A stretch of 64,000 nt of DNA from Paludibacter sp. (lineage in GTDB: Bacteria; Bacteroidota; Bacteroidia; Bacteroidales; Paludibacteraceae), in NCBI GenBank assembly GCA_028692715.1, contig JAQUWU010000002.1, forward strand, positions 87,437 to 151,436. The letters run 5' to 3'. The translations under genes were made by a program, and so were the position numbers. Below the pieces are notes generated by a model that worked only from the letters and a program-made list of their open reading frames with translations, had not been told where the DNA came from and made no database searches. This document shows positions 3,577-43,981 of the stretch, one piece after another; the stretch's first letter is position 1, and every line of letters starts with the position of its first letter.

Positions 3577-4836
3577 ATGAATAGCAATACAACTCAATCA
3601 AACTGGAAACAAAATTCAGTAAAAGCATCACGTTCGTTGAATTTCGTGAACGATGAAATGATAAATGTCGTATTATTTGCGTTAGCTGACGAGGCTGTGC
3701 TTCAAACTGATCAGATACTGCTGGAAAATGCAAAAGATTTGGCAGCGATGGATAAATCGAATCCGATGTACGACCGGCTATTGTTAAGTAAGGAACGGAT
3801 CGAAGGGATTGCTGCTGATATTAGAAATGTGGCATCCTTAACTTCGCCCTTTGGGAAAACGTTGATGGAGACCGAACGCCCCAATGGAATGAAAATTTCA
3901 AAAGTAACCGTTCCGTTTGGAGTGGTAGGAATTATCTATGAAGCACGTCCAAATGTTAGTTTCGATGTTTTCTCGCTTTGTTTTAAGTCGGGTAATGCCT
4001 GTGTTTTGAAAGGTGGAACGGATGCACACAATTCTAATTCAGCAATTGTCAAGGTTATTCAATCGGTGTTAGAGAAATTTGGATTGGATAAAAATATTGT
4101 AACCTTATTGCCCGCAGGGCGCGAAGCTACGGCCGAATTGATGAATGCTGTAGGAATTGTAGATGTAATTATTCCCAGAGGTGGAAAAGGATTGATAGAA
4201 TTTGTCCGTGATAATTCACGCATTCCGGTTATCGAAACAGGGGCAGGGATTTGTCATACTTATTTTGATGAAAATGGTGACCTCGAAAAAGGAAAAGAGA
4301 TCATATTTAATGCAAAAACCCGAAGAGTAAGTGTTTGTAACGCTCTGGATTGTTTGGTAATACATGAAAAGCGTTTGACAGATTTAGCCGAAATTTGTAA
4401 AAAACTAGCCACGAAGAAGGTGATAATTTATGCCGACGTTAAAGCGTATACATTTCTTAACGGAAATTATCCTTCTGAATTATTGCAAAAAGCTACCGAC
4501 GAAAGTTATGGAACTGAGTTTTTAGATTATAAAATGTCTGTAAAAACAGTATCATCAATTCAAGAAGCAATCGATCATATTTCTACCTACAGTTCGAAAC
4601 ACAGTGAATGTATAGTTAGTGAGAATGAAAAGGCTATCTCGCTGTTTGATAAGATGGTAGATGCAGCATGTGTCTATACAAATGTATCAACGGCATTCAC
4701 CGATGGTGCTCAATTTGGGTTGGGAGCAGAAATAGGAATCAGTACCCAAAAGCTTCATGCGCGTGGACCAATGGCATTGGAAGAATTATGTTCATATAAA
4801 TGGATAATTAAGGGTGATGGACTTATAAGGAGTTAA
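3577..4836 (+). CDS. proA: Gamma-glutamyl phosphate reductase
   Basis: Second step of proline synthesis: NADPH-dependent reduction of gamma-glutamyl phosphate to the semialdehyde. The 419-residue length is normal for the aldehyde-dehydrogenase-like ProA family. Visible motifs include [35 protein letters not shown] and the active-site Cys254 in [12 protein letters not shown]. proC is not in the window. Confidence 0.95.
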
Positions 4837-10273: not shown

Positions 10274-11821
10274 ATGAAAAAAGACAGAATACTTTGGGCA
10301 GATGACGAAATAGACTTGTTACAACCCTACGTTTTATTTTTAGAGGAAAAAGGGTACGAAATTGTGACAGCCAACAATGGTAAAGATGCAGTAGAATTGT
10401 GTCAGAAAGAGACTTTTGATATTATTTTTCTGGATGAAAATATGCCGGGTTTAAGTGGACTGGAAACTTTAGCATTGATAAAAGATATCGATGCTAATGT
10501 GCCTCTGGTGATGATTACCAAGAGCGAAGAGGAAAATATTATGAATATGGCTATTGGAAATAAAATTGCCGATTATCTTACCAAACCGGTTAATCCCAGC
10601 CAAATACTACTTACTCTGAAAAAGAATATTCATAAAAAAGAAATTGTAACAGAACACACTACTTCATCCTATCAATCACAATTTGGTAGAATCGGAATGC
10701 AAATCAACGATTCGTTGACCTACGAAGATTGGGTGGAAGTGTACAAAAAATTGGTGTATTGGGAGCTTGAACTGGCAGAAACTGATAATGGTATGGACGA
10801 AATGCTTCAAATGCAAAAAACCGATGCTAATATCACTTATACCAAATTTATTCGGAGAAATTATGAGGACTGGTTCCAACATCCAGAGAGTCGTCCCTTG
10901 ATGAGTCCTGATTTGTTTAAAACAAAAGTATTCCCTTTACTCGACAATGGTGAGAAAGTATTTTTTATTTTAGTCGATAATTTTCGATACGATCAATGGA
11001 AAATTATACGTGAATTACTAAGTGAATTTTACCAGTTCGATGAAGAAGAGTTGTATTGTGGAATATTGCCAACTGCTACTCAATATGCCAGAAATGCAAT
11101 TTTTTCGGGTTTAATGCCGTTACAAATTCAGCAAATGTTCCCTGATCTTTGGGTAGAAGAAGAGGAAGAGGAAGGAAAAAATATGAATGAAAAGGATTTG
11201 TTGCAAACCATGTTTACCCGTTATCGCAAAAACTACAGTTTCTCCTATAATAAAATCAATGATTCTAATTCTTGCGCTCGGTTAATAGATCAGTTACCTC
11301 GACTTGATAATAATCAGTTGAATGTATGTGTTTTGAATTTTATTGATATGTTATCGCATGCCCGAACTGAGTCGAAAATGATGCGCGAACTTGCTAATGA
11401 TGCAGGTGCTTATCGTTCGTTGACACTTTCGTGGTTTAAACATTCATCAACCTATGAACTCTTCAAATCTATTGCTCAACGTGGCTATAAAGTCGTTTTT
11501 ACTACTGATCATGGTACGATCCAGGTAAATAATCCAGTTAAAGTAATTGGTGACAAAAATACAAATGTAAACCTGCGATACAAAGTTGGTAAAAACTTGA
11601 GTTATAACAAAAAAGAAGTTTTTGAGATTTTACAACCATCAAAAGTAGGCTTGCCAAGTCCAAATGTAAGTTCAGCATATATTTTTGCCAATAACGATAG
11701 TTTTTTTGCGTACCCAAACAATTATAATCACTATGTGAGTTATTACAAAAGCACTTTTCAACACGGAGGAGTTTCATTGGAAGAAATGCTGATCCCGATA
11801 GTTTTGATGGAGCCAAAATGA
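10274..11821 (+). CDS. porX: PorX-type response regulator with PglZ phosphodiesterase domain
   Basis: A receiver domain (residues 1-120; acidic pocket WADDE, phosphoacceptor Asp54 in IIFLDENMPG, conserved Lys in YLTKPVNP) is followed by helices and a PglZ/alkaline-phosphatase-like domain (about 200-510) with FILVDNFRYDQW, TTDHGTIQ and HGGVSLEEMLIPI. This is the architecture of PorX, which with the sensor kinase PorY controls T9SS genes; its PglZ domain has been described as a metal-dependent oligonucleotide phosphodiesterase. It is translationally adjacent to sprE (two-base gap). PorY is not in the window. The C-terminus is complete, so the inverted-repeat element just downstream has not cut the gene. 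Confidence 0.88.
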   Translation: MKKDRILWADDEIDLLQPYVLFLEEKGYEIVTANNGKDAVELCQKETFDIIFLDENMPGLSGLETLALIKDIDANVPLVMITKSEEENIMNMAIGNKIADYLTKPVNPSQILLTLKKNIHKKEIVTEHTTSSYQSQFGRIGMQINDSLTYEDWVEVYKKLVYWELELAETDNGMDEMLQMQKTDANITYTKFIRRNYEDWFQHPESRPLMSPDLFKTKVFPLLDNGEKVFFILVDNFRYDQWKIIRELLSEFYQFDEEELYCGILPTATQYARNAIFSGLMPLQIQQMFPDLWVEEEEEEGKNMNEKDLLQTMFTRYRKNYSFSYNKINDSNSCARLIDQLPRLDNNQLNVCVLNFIDMLSHARTESKMMRELANDAGAYRSLTLSWFKHSSTYELFKSIAQRGYKVVFTTDHGTIQVNNPVKVIGDKNTNVNLRYKVGKNLSYNKKEVFEILQPSKVGLPSPNVSSAYIFANNDSFFAYPNNYNHYVSYYKSTFQHGGVSLEEMLIPIVLMEPK

Positions 11822-11824
11822 TTT

Positions 11825-12300
11825 TTTAACCGCAGAGAACGCTGAGAAAACGCAAAGAAAATATAATCTAAATTAAATGACTGAAAATCAAATTTCTGAA
11901 AAAGTAATTGGGTGTGCTATTTTGGTACATAAAGCATTAGGTCCTGGATTACTCGAAAGTGCCTATCAGGAATGTCTTTTTTTTGAATTGAAAGAAGTTG
12001 GTTTAAAAGTTGAAAAACAAAAGCCTCTACCATTAATATACAAAGATGTAAAGCTGGATGTAGGTTATAGATTAGATTTGATAGTTGAAGAAAAAGTAAT
12101 TATAGAGTTAAAATCTGTAGAAACGTTGAATGATATTCATGTTGCACAAATGATAACTTATTTGAAACTCTCTGGTTGTAAACTTGGTTTATTGCTGAAT
12201 TTTAATGTCTTAAGATTGATTGATGGATTAAAAAGAATAGTAAATAATTTATAATTCTCTGTGTGACTTTGCGGAAAACTCTGCGTTCTCTGCGGTTAAA
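11825..12300. mobile_element. Mini-element: GxxExxY gene between 18-bp perfect inverted repeats
   Basis: TTTAACCGCAGAGAACGC at 11825-11842 is the exact reverse complement of 12283-12300. A second inner pair, CGCAAAG (about 11851) and CTTTGCG (about 12266), lies inside. The 476-bp unit contains nothing but the GxxExxY gene and sits between porX and argF without damaging either. I see no convincing target duplication. That the unit is or was mobile is inference. Confidence 0.7.
11877..12254 (+). CDS. GxxExxY protein (PD-(D/E)XK nuclease-like)
   Basis: 125 residues. The family signature G-x-x-E-x-x-Y is Gly24-Leu-Leu-Glu27-Ser-Ala-Tyr30 in the segment LGPGLLESAY. A nuclease-like core follows: Asp67 in YRLDLIV and Glu77-x-Lys79 in IIELKSVE, the D...ExK pattern of PD-(D/E)XK enzymes. 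The family is common in Bacteroidetes and its biochemical role is unproven. It is the only gene inside the flanking inverted repeats, which suggests a link between this protein and movement or maintenance of the repeat. Confidence 0.85.
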   Translation: MTENQISEKVIGCAILVHKALGPGLLESAYQECLFFELKEVGLKVEKQKPLPLIYKDVKLDVGYRLDLIVEEKVIIELKSVETLNDIHVAQMITYLKLSGCKLGLLLNFNVLRLIDGLKRIVNNL

Positions 12301-12315
12301 TAGAAAAAATAAGAA

Positions 12316-13269
12316 ATGAAAACATATACAAATGTAAAAGACCTCGGCAATTTGCAAGAGGCAGTCAAAGAAGCTTTAGAGATTAAGAAAAACCGTTATG
12401 CATACAAACATATCGGTGAAAATAAAACGCTGTTAATGGTGTTTTTTAATTCCAGTTTACGTACCCGTTTGAGTACTCAAAAAGCAGGAATGAACTTGGG
12501 TATGAATACCATGGTTCTGGATGTGAATGCCGGTGCCTGGAAGTTGGAAACTGAACGGGGTGTTATTATGGATGGCGATAAACCGGAACATATTCTGGAA
12601 GCTATACCCGTGATGGCTAGTTATTGTGATGTTATTGGTGTAAGAGCTTTTGCACAGTTTGAAAGTAAAGAATTTGATTATCAGGAAACGATTATCAATC
12701 AATTTATAAAGTATTCGGGAAAACCTGTTTTTAGTATGGAGGCTGCAACTATGCATCCTTTGCAGGCTTTTGCCGATTTAATTACTATTGAAGAATATAA
12801 AAAAACAGCTCGTCCAAAAGTTGTACTTACTTGGGCGCCACATCCCAAAGCATTGCCGCAGGCTGTTCCGAACTCTTTTGCCGATTTTATGAATGAAGCT
12901 GATGTAGAATTTGTCATCACTCATCCCAAAGGATATGAGTTAGCTGAGAAATTTGTACGTGGAGCGCATGTAGAATACGACCAGATGAAAGCTTTCGAAG
13001 GCGCAGATTTTATTTATGCTAAAAACTGGGCAGCTTATCAGGATCCAAATTACGGGAAGATTCTCAGCTCTGATCGTGCCTGGACGGTTAGTGACCGACA
13101 AATGGCAGTTACAAACAATGCTTATTTTATGCATTGTTTGCCGGTTCGTCGAAATATGATTGTCACCGATGATGTCATTGAAAGTGCCCAATCACTTGTT
13201 ATTCCTGAGGCTGCAAACCGAGAAATTTCTGCTCAAGTGGTAATAAAAAGATTATTGACCTCATCCTAA
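12316..13269 (+). CDS. argF': N-succinylornithine (or N-acetylornithine) carbamoyltransferase
   Basis: Transfers the carbamoyl group to an N-acylated ornithine in arginine synthesis. 317 residues with carbamoyl-phosphate motif SSLRTR (47-51), the proline-rich MDGDKPEHILEAIP stretch, HPLQAFAD, TWAPHPKALPQAVPNS and FMHCLPVRR. Residue 90 is Pro in DGDKP90EH. In the crystal-structure work on this family Pro90 marks the Bacteroides succinylornithine enzyme, while the Xanthomonas acetylornithine enzyme has Glu at the matching position, so succinylornithine is the predicted substrate. The last three codons (Thr-Ser-Ser) and the stop overlap a palindromic repeat. Confidence 0.92.
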   Translation: MKTYTNVKDLGNLQEAVKEALEIKKNRYAYKHIGENKTLLMVFFNSSLRTRLSTQKAGMNLGMNTMVLDVNAGAWKLETERGVIMDGDKPEHILEAIPVMASYCDVIGVRAFAQFESKEFDYQETIINQFIKYSGKPVFSMEAATMHPLQAFADLITIEEYKKTARPKVVLTWAPHPKALPQAVPNSFADFMNEADVEFVITHPKGYELAEKFVRGAHVEYDQMKAFEGADFIYAKNWAAYQDPNYGKILSSDRAWTVSDRQMAVTNNAYFMHCLPVRRNMIVTDDVIESAQSLVIPEAANREISAQVVIKRLLTSS

Positions 13270-42615: not shown

Positions 42616-43584
42616 ATGGAAAATTATTTACAAACGTCGCCTATGCAGTTTATCGAAGAAGGTTTTCAGAAAGAAAATCAATCCGAAACTGAACTGAAAT
42701 TTAGTCTGGGGAACGGTTATATGCAAAGCCGAGCACATTTTGAAGAATTCTATTCGGGAGAATCTGAACTTGGTTCTTATATCGATGGTGTTTACAAAAA
42801 TACGATTGAAGGTGAAGAGAAATGCTTGTCAAATCTTCCAAACTGGACTAGTTTACATGTTTTTTTGAATTCAGAAATGTTAGATTTAGCTCGCTGCGAA
42901 GTCTCTAATTATCGTAGGATGCTTGATTTGGAAAATGGGTTATTAGAACGAAGCTTTGAAGTAACGACTGAAGTAGGTCGACAACTGGAAGTAAAAATAA
43001 CGCGATTTTTGAGTTTAGCACGTACAGAGATAGGTGCCATCCGATATACCATAAAATCATTGAATTTTGTTGGACGAATTGCATTTTTGCCGGTAATTGA
43101 TGGAGATTTTAATGCAAAAAAATATCCCGATAAAGAGCCCGAATGGAATGTATTACAATCAAGAACGCAGAAAGAAGTTGCTCATCTCTGGATTCAGACC
43201 AGAAAAACAAATTTTCAGGTTTGCGGCGCCGTTTCCTACGAATTGTATAAAAATAACTCCCTTAAAAAAGTTATACCAACAAAAATTGAAAAACAAAAAA
43301 TTGCAGGGTTCTCTGTAGGTTGCGATGTAAAAGAAAATGATACCGTGTATCTGAACAAATATTTTGCCGTTTTAAGTTCTTTAAATCATCCTTATCAGGA
43401 ATTGACCGTTCGTTCGTGCGATAAGGTATTAGATGCAAGAAATATTGGTTGGGATGCTTTAATGGAAGAGAGTAAAATTGCCTGGAATCAAAAGTGGGAT
43501 AAACTTGGACTTTTACCCGGGAGTGAAACGAATAGTGATGACGTTTTGAAAGCATATAATGAATTTTTAATTAAACCCTCTTAG
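42616..43584 (+). pseudogene. Truncated GH65 phosphorylase (maltose phosphorylase-like), N-terminal part only
   Basis: 322 residues that match the N-terminal beta-sandwich of GH65 disaccharide phosphorylases (FSLGNGYMQSRAHFEEFY, LPNWTSLHVFLNSEMLDL, RRMLDLENGLLERSFEV) and the start of the linker (IAWNQKWDKL). The (alpha/alpha)6 catalytic barrel, over half of a normal protein of about 770 residues, is absent; no remainder of it is seen downstream. The last 25 residues do not look like GH65. The TAG stop is part of a 17-bp terminal inverted repeat. It cannot be an active phosphorylase; a stable carbohydrate-binding fragment is possible. Confidence 0.8.
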
Positions 43585-43686
43585 TACATGACAAAAAGTA
43601 AGTCGGGGTTAGAGGTGGAAACCCCTGTTATAAATCATTGTTGTACTGCATGATAATAGATTATTGTATTTTTTGTCATGTACTAA
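43581..43686. repeat. 106-bp element with 17-bp perfect inverted repeats
   Basis: TTAGTACATGACAAAAA at 43581-43597 and its reverse complement at 43670-43686. The interior has GGGGTT...AACCCC as an inner hairpin. It abuts the truncated GH65 and supplies its stop codon. Confidence 0.8.
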
Positions 43687-43779
43687 ATTCAATGGTTCGT
43701 TATAAAACAATTTATTAGTTTAGTATTCAGGTAATTAAACCGATTAACCCTTTGAAAATATCAAATATATTTTTTTTAA

Positions 43780-43912
43780 TTAAACGCAAAGAACGCTAAG
43801 CATAATAATTTTGTAATATACAGTACTTCAAATATATATGCAAAGAACGCAAAGAGAAAAACTTGAAGTTTTTCTTGGCGACTTAGCAAAACATAATACC
43901 TTTGCGTTGAAA
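43780..43912. repeat. ORF-less inverted-repeat element related to the GxxExxY element
   Basis: The left end TTAAACGCAAAGAACGCTAA matches the left end of the GxxExxY element at all but three of 21 positions. AACGCAAAG (43783-43791) and CTTTGCGTT (43900-43908) are perfect inverted repeats. About 130 bp, no gene inside. Confidence 0.65.
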
Positions 43913-43981
43913 AATAAAATTTTATAACTAACTATTGAAATTAAACCCTGACCAAATTATCACTATACAAGATAAATATTT

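Follow-up and report, generated by a model that had tools for sequence, protein, structure and literature searches.

A GxxExxY gene between inverted heptamer arrays in Paludibacter, and the tie between repeat word and protein type

Within a 64,000-nucleotide stretch of a Paludibacter sp. genome (assembly GCA_028692715.1, contig JAQUWU010000002.1, forward-strand positions 87,437 to 151,436; hereafter the window, with G000 as its source genome), a single small gene of the GxxExxY family is enclosed by an exact inverted repeat and sits between two intact genes, which raises the question of what ties such a gene to the repeats around it. The original prediction saw here a minimal mobile unit in which the protein could act on the repeat. 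We find that the gene and its two arms form one heritable cassette, in which the type of heptamer in the arms belongs to the type of protein that they enclose. Many relatives have the same layout with a word that changes along with the protein, which points to the word as a likely target of the protein's action, and the best reading is a partnership resembling that of repetitive extragenic palindromes (REPs) and REP-associated tyrosine transposases (RAYTs), with a Cas4-fold nuclease that would be paired with repeat words of its own.

The gene, its arms and the predicted nuclease

The GxxExxY gene (11877..12254, forward strand) encodes a protein of 125 amino acids with a PD-(D/E)XK fold. The exact 18-nt inverted repeat has its left copy, TTTAACCGCAGAGAACGC, at 11825..11842 on the forward strand and its right copy at 12283..12300 on the reverse strand; the match lengthens to 22 nt with one mismatch, and an inner CGCAAAG/CTTTGCG pair lies at 11851-11857/12267-12273, and the layout described in the original prediction is borne out in the coordinates that we checked. 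What had been missed is that the arms are short tandem arrays of a heptamer, CRCNRAG, whose copies lie 9-12 nt apart and keep one orientation per arm. The left arm (11825..11857, forward strand) holds three of them, CGCAGAG at 11831-11837, CGCTGAG at 11840-11846 and CGCAAAG at 11851-11857, and the right arm (12257..12300, reverse strand) holds four, at 12257-12263, 12267-12273, 12279-12285 and 12288-12294, in steps of 10, 12 and 9; these are, inverted, CGCAGAG, CGCAGAG, CGCAAAG and CACAGAG. Seven of the 39 occurrences of CRCNRAG on both strands of the window fall in the arms. A chance origin of the arms was rejected, since the 18-mer at up to three mismatches is found 3 times in the window against an expectation of 0.05 (the third match is in a miniature inverted-repeat transposable element, or MITE, at 43.7 kb), and the inverted flank match scores 19.5 where the maximum among 2000 dinucleotide shuffles is 16.5.

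The protein is a clear member of its family by both TIGR04256 (152.5 bits against a cut-off of 35) and the Pfam family PDDEXK_3 (PF13366; 147.4 bits against 22). Among 17 aligned members G24, E27, Y30, D67, E77, K79 and Y95 are invariant and Q91 is kept in at least 90%; we take D67, E77, K79, Q91 and Y95 to be the catalytic residues. Both the fold, with SSO0001 as top match, and the residue pattern (D, ExK, Q...Y) are those of the Cas4/RecB-like PD-(D/E)XK group, and a PD-(D/E)XK nuclease with a fold like that of Cas4 and lambda exonuclease is the most likely identity of the protein, its activity being predicted. It differs from Cas4, lambda exonuclease and the RecB nucleases in its length, in its neighbours (porX and a carbamoyltransferase gene) and in the sequence search of the Protein Data Bank (PDB), where no relative was significant (top match Endonuclease I, 3cae, E 0.45). 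A role in anti-phage defence or in phages was considered and rejected: the sole match to the PADLOC defence models is a weak one to PDC-M36A (E 0.0047, 13.8 bits, residues 72-112), and neither a PHROG match nor a phage record was found. Matches to GxxExxY do occur in eight records of a plasmid collection, mostly large replicons, from Gemmatirosa, Bernardetia, Sphingomonas, Bacteroides, Fusobacteria, Prevotella, Treponema and Persicobacter.

The repeat word follows the protein

Matching arms are a general feature of these genes. For each gene, 300 nt of upstream sequence were scored against 300 nt of downstream sequence in reverse complement, with swapped flanks as the control. Of 75 loci, drawn from a listing that also had further fragments, ten were dropped: L085 and L127 for want of a tblastn match, and L060, L064, L069, L073, L083, L091, L094 and L118 because a flank was shorter than 150 nt. 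This left 65 genes in 25 genomes (source included). The median score is 16.5 for a gene's own flanks and 9.5 for swapped ones, and a score of at least 18 is reached by 28 of the 65 genes as against 57 of 4160 swapped pairs (1.4%). The flanks of porX reach it once in 25, and control open reading frames (ORFs) in 400 kb of genome G016 five times in 313, two of these five being the GxxExxY gene of that genome and its gene of the S23/four-helix family, discussed below.

When the arms are sorted by protein similarity, families of words can be picked out by eye, including CACATAGG, CACTAAGG, CACAAAGT, CGCAAAG/CGCAGAG and CGCAAAT, followed by CGCGGATTT, CAGAATTTA, CTATGATTTTG, CGAATTAAA and others. 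This impression was quantified over 144 genes with flanks of at least 140 nt (66 from the relatives and 78 from named genomes), which give 10165 pairs without common flanking DNA. An arm match of at least 18 between different genes is seen in none of 932 pairs below 30% protein identity, in 6.3% of 1832 pairs at 60-70%, in 32% of 212 pairs at 70-80% and in 55% of 20 pairs above 80%. The Spearman correlation between arm and protein similarity is 0.284, compared with a maximum of 0.097 in 500 permutations. Genes at unrelated sites thus seldom have a word in common unless their proteins are alike.

The association of GxxExxY genes with repeats, which the original prediction proposed to look for across Bacteroidetes, is present there and reaches far past the genus. 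Named genomes were scanned with the window's clade as the query and the best 80 of 582 relatives kept, so that the spread over phyla describes the nearest relatives only; many of them are metagenome-assembled genomes (MAGs), in which contamination is possible. These best 80 of 582 are mostly Bacteroidota, with Nostocales, Pyrinomonadaceae, Ignavibacteria/Melioribacter, Spartobacteria and Anaerolineae in addition. Their arms contain CACAAAG 108 times, CGCAAAG 68, CGCAGAG 66 and CACAGAG 52, the spacing of successive cores is chiefly 9-10 nt and next 12, and 49 of the 80 loci have at least two oriented heptamers in each arm. CRCNNAG cores in the expected orientation number 2.4 and 3.0 per 150 nt; shuffled sequence has 0.2 and the opposite strand 0.8. 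Outside the main Bacteroidota, 14 of the 17 loci among the best 80 carry at least three heptamers in both arms, including all ten Nostocales loci, two of Pyrinomonadaceae, and those of Melioribacter and Anaerolineae. Own flanks match at 18 or above in 27 of the 78 named loci with flanks of at least 140 nt and in 261 of 6006 swapped pairs, a swapped rate that is raised, and a control that is weaker, because one clade has one common word.

A tie between word and protein would also be expected from descent alone, with inert arms that travel beside the gene and are recognized by nothing. That gene and arms do move as a unit, and that arrays occur without any gene, fits such co-inheritance well. 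Inert arms should drift, however, and the CRCNRAG core is kept in Bacteroidota, Nostocales, Pyrinomonadaceae and an Anaerolineae MAG, the phased spacing is kept with it, and the vocabulary is specific to the family, so we consider descent alone an unlikely account.

The cassette at fixed sites

The gene upstream of the unit is porX (10274..11821, forward strand; 837 bits against a cut-off of 300) and the one downstream an argF-like carbamoyltransferase gene (12316..13269, forward strand), whose top match, N-acetylornithine carbamoyltransferase, scores 279.3 bits, slightly below the cut-off of 288; both are intact and serve as context. Forty genomes were searched for porX (source included), 30 porX loci were fetched, and the carbamoyltransferase gene adjoins porX in 20. 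As the comparison of empty and occupied intervals proposed in the original prediction could now be made, it turns out that the arrangement is not fixed: a GxxExxY unit is present in 3 of the 20 (G000, G014 and G021, the latter two with proteins 85% and 76% identical to that of the window), and the other 17 intervals are gaps of 5-252 nt. The arms differ among the three units. Those of G014 match each other over 39 nt with one difference, while those of G021 are of the same kind of word by eye but score 9.0, and the G021 gene has an inner stop, so this copy may be decaying. No target-site duplication was seen by eye at porX-argF, where the empty sites have diverged too far between the two genes for the borders of an insertion to be read. 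Several relatives have gene-less runs of other words in their empty intervals (L041-L047), e.g., TTTACCATTTACC and GGTGAATGGTGAATGG, as judged by eye.

The most direct view of the cassette comes from a second site, common to nine genomes, at which the GxxExxY gene comes in two types and the flanking genes are leuC and leuD in the two loci tested (L005 and L081). Between G000 and G018 LeuC is 91% identical and the GxxExxY protein only 61%, with different words (CACACTGA type vs. CGCAAAT), whereas between G000 and G022 LeuC is 80% and the GxxExxY protein 81% identical, with the same type of word. Since the two types of protein and word alternate at this site against the kinship of the flanking genes, gene and arms have changed together at a fixed place and travel as one cassette.

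Such movement could be that of a minimal transposable unit, with the arms as terminal inverted repeats and the protein as transposase or helper. The inverted arms around the gene, the occupation of 3 of 20 porX-argF intervals and the uneven number of GxxExxY matches per genome (0 to 12, some broken or partial) all speak for it. In the source genome, though, the six GxxExxY genes include no near-identical copies. The exact 18-mer is confined to the two window arms, the five other genes are 40-59% identical to that of the window, and their flanks carry other repeats, e.g., CACATAGG, ACACAAAGT or CACACTGA words by eye; on these grounds a plain insertion sequence, for which similar copies at several places in G000 would be expected, was rejected. 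Sites are also kept across species (eight cyanobacterial loci, for instance, share one), and PD-(D/E)XK nucleases are not usually known as stand-alone transposases. Because copies are so often at fixed sites, and because many gene-less arrays lie inside other MITEs (see below), a simple transposon is unlikely. Of the mobile unit first proposed, the part that stands is that gene and arms act as one; ordinary hopping by terminal repeats finds no support here.

The arms might instead work as RNA, forming a stem around the gene in the transcript that affects stability, processing or termination, with a protein that acts on RNA, as in the case of rRNA intervening sequences. In the folded transcript across the unit the arms do pair, and the fold is better than those of 100 shuffles (z -4.5); S23 genes have the same layout. 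In five of eight orthologous sets an arm matches its own partner better than the arm of another copy, by 1.3-4.7, with means of 21.7 vs. 17.6 at porX-argF and 16.9 vs. 12.3 at leuC-leuD (where two word types are mixed), and the G014 copy at porX-argF is an exception in that its own pairing is better by 19 points. In the remaining three sets own pairing is no better (21.1 vs. 21.1 at the cyanobacterial site), variation falls largely on the degenerate positions of the word, and single, unpaired arrays exist. Judged by these own and other-copy matches, exact stem pairing was rejected as the main conserved feature, which favors a word bound by protein over an RNA stem, and we regard the RNA explanation as improbable.

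Gene-less arrays, the S23 parallel and the proposed mechanism

Arrays of the same words are found without a gene. In counts that include the arms of genes, 18 of the 40 genomes have CGCAAATTACGCAAAT (up to one mismatch), each of them a member of the window's genus, with a maximum of 33 and at most one copy of the reversed pattern per genome; AACCACATAGGCACATAG is present in 9 of 40, and the window 18-mer in 6 of 40, most often in G025 (9). Six Nostoc genomes have 10-37 matches of their own word and none of the control. The gene-less arrays of Nostoc often consist of four heptamers in steps of 10, 12-13 and 10, as single arrays or inverted pairs. Most of those sampled are present in several species with varying length, and some are missing amid unrelated sequence: at four aligned sites, L417, L418, L428 and L431 have unrelated sequence in place of the array. 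An apparent empty site in G043 was discarded, as the alignment shows a shortened array. In L415, L416 and L420 another Nostoc repeat seems by eye to be inserted in the heptamer array, e.g., CTTCTCTACGAGACGCTACGCG in L420.

Some of the gene-less arrays are inverted pairs in which the same arms enclose a short loop, as in G016 (4336-4432), G018 and Nostoc L371; no such pair of the window 18-mer was found in its own genome. G013 and G001 lack, in the corresponding interval, a gene-less hairpin of G014. The existence of such hairpins, together with the intact putative catalytic residues, would be in keeping with homing, whereby the nuclease would cleave a hairpin of its word that has no gene, and the gene would be copied into the loop as the break is repaired. 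None of the 17 empty porX-argF intervals (one site, in other species) has a matching gene-less hairpin, however, and one (L031) has a single AACCACAAAGG word; we regard homing as a very remote prospect.

In the mechanism that we propose, the degenerate heptamers of the two inverted arms, spaced at close to one turn of the helix, would be bound by the nuclease, which would cut or trim DNA at arrays of its own word. Through repair, or through exchange of strands from one array to another, a small number of intergenic sites could then retain their cassette, have it replaced or receive a copy; arrays of that word without a gene may survive elsewhere as dependants or relics. The layout, the tie of word to protein and the exchange of cassette types are observed; recognition of the word array as DNA, cutting and purpose are what we infer from the sequence comparisons, and we hold the chances that the protein works in this way, with the cassette persisting through repair or strand exchange, to be evenly balanced. 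The link between gene-less words and a cognate gene within one genome is weak. With the arms of the genes themselves subtracted by hand, CACATAG is found in 3 of 4 genomes with the cognate gene and 5 of 36 without it (Fisher p = 0.02; ranks within the genus p = 0.04; G012 enters these p values as lacking the gene although its L069 has such arms by eye), and five of the eight remaining places in G000 are within 2 kb of the gene.

A number of results weigh against this reading. Copies of CGCAAAT, counted in the same manner, are associated with the cognate gene only at p = 0.08 (Mann-Whitney), and G001 has 25 copies of CGCAAATTACGCAAAT yet no GxxExxY match; given the weakness of both associations, we rejected the idea that gene-less words depend strictly on a cognate gene. 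Of 20 gene-less CGCAAAT hairpins in four genomes, 12-15 are, by eye, enclosed by MITE-like outer ends and may thus owe their spread to other transposases. The top Foldseek match in the PDB has an E-value of 1.3e-3, with none at or below 0.001. Among the 65 genes, 22 score below 14, including the G021 copy at porX-argF, so not all copies have matching arms at this sensitivity, and 3 of the 17 loci outside the main Bacteroidota (L277, L312 and L327, of Ignavibacteria, Spartobacteria and Balneolaceae) have words in one arm only.

The main caution comes from the S23/four-helix genes (TIGR02436; L128-L157) of the same genomes, which also lie between inverted arrays of short words. Genes of this family are known from rRNA intervening sequences, and S23 proteins are not known as nucleases. 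From a listing of more than 30 loci, 30 were fetched and 29 used, of which 18 have matching flanks as opposed to 29 of 812 control pairs, in the same layout of arms; this layout therefore needs no nuclease. The protein is unrelated and the words are its own: the two vocabularies are nearly disjoint, with 1 of 1885 cross pairs between S23 and GxxExxY arms at 18 or above, and the words track the S23 protein less strongly (Spearman 0.127, with 10 of 1000 permutations as high).

In the parts of the literature available to us, the nearest described arrangement is that of REPs, RAYTs (TnpA-REP) and REPINs, in which a gene has repeats of its own class on both sides, copies without a gene occur elsewhere singly or as inverted pairs, the gene is often at a conserved site and the repeat class is specific to the protein (PMC8049555, PMC3116915). 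The likeness lies in the single gene, the flanking repeats of its own class, the gene-less copies, which include inverted pairs in relatives, and the specificity of repeat for protein. The differences are that the protein here is of the PDDEXK_3 nuclease family and RAYT is a tyrosine transposase, that the repeats here are tandem heptamers (palindromes being judged by eye) and REPs are palindromic, and that we see exchange of the cassette at leuC-leuD and weak enrichment in cognate genomes. Vertical inheritance at a conserved site, as for RAYTs, fits the several common sites, yet not the occupation of 3 of 20 porX-argF intervals or the exchange of types at leuC-leuD.

The original prediction also held that GxxExxY has no established role, and in the open PMC papers, as far as their accessible text goes, the family (PF13366, TIGR04256, PDDEXK_3) indeed receives incidental mentions only (PMC8934634, PMC12085832, PMC9756366). 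Searches of the same papers found no description of a GxxExxY gene within word arms, none of six arm words as literal text, and nothing on palindromic repeats of Bacteroidetes with S23. The TAACTGA heptamer repeats of Beggiatoaceae, Cyanobacteria and Bacteroidetes (PMC4679880) are of a different word, and GxxExxY is not named in the part of that source consulted.

With the word arms the family gains a candidate substrate that can be read beside the gene, with a different substrate predicted for each clade and a function testable in vitro. More tentatively, and with somewhat more doubt than confidence, GxxExxY proteins may be widespread repeat-specific nucleases with a heptamer code particular to each lineage in several phyla, S23 being a parallel class with another code. 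If so, a large share of the short-word repeats in Bacteroidota and Nostoc genomes that so far have no explanation would be substrates of such proteins; this offers an origin for these intergenic repeats and places S23, a second family of unclear role, in the same frame.

The MITEs and other dispersed repeats of Bacteroidota and Nostoc resemble the cassette arms in the gene-less inverted arrays of the same words that they contain, and several differ in having separate outer ends with the words inside. The original prediction had named wide occurrence of the repeat without a GxxExxY gene as evidence against itself, and this is partly what we find, in that gene-less arrays are common and many are inside unrelated MITEs. 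In G000, 18 of the 20 remaining matches of the 18-mer (at three mismatches) fall inside 17 copies of one MITE-like family. A further MITE of about 185-205 bp with ends GAGTGTACTCCGAAAAG / CTTTTTCGGAGTGGACTC bears inverted CGCAAAT arrays; eight copies were aligned (L471-L478), and it is missing at one site in G016 and G022 (L488, L489). The outer ends of the CGCAAAT hairpins mentioned above have a sequence other than that of this MITE. A second dispersed repeat of G000 (L484-L487), about 105 bp long with AAGTATTTACCATTAAACAATG near one end, has copies 91-93% identical to the one that adjoins the MITE in L204.

The window itself holds one of the 17 family copies, a gene-less MITE-like element (43690..43937, forward strand) with ends CAATGGTTCGTTATAAAA / TTTTATAACTAACTATTG and inner CGCAAAGAACGC arrays. 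It is adjoined by a hairpin-like sequence at 43582-43685 with arms TAGTACATGACAAAAAG / TTTTTTGTCATGTACTA, which overlaps the stop codon of the ORF at 42616-43584 and may have shortened it.
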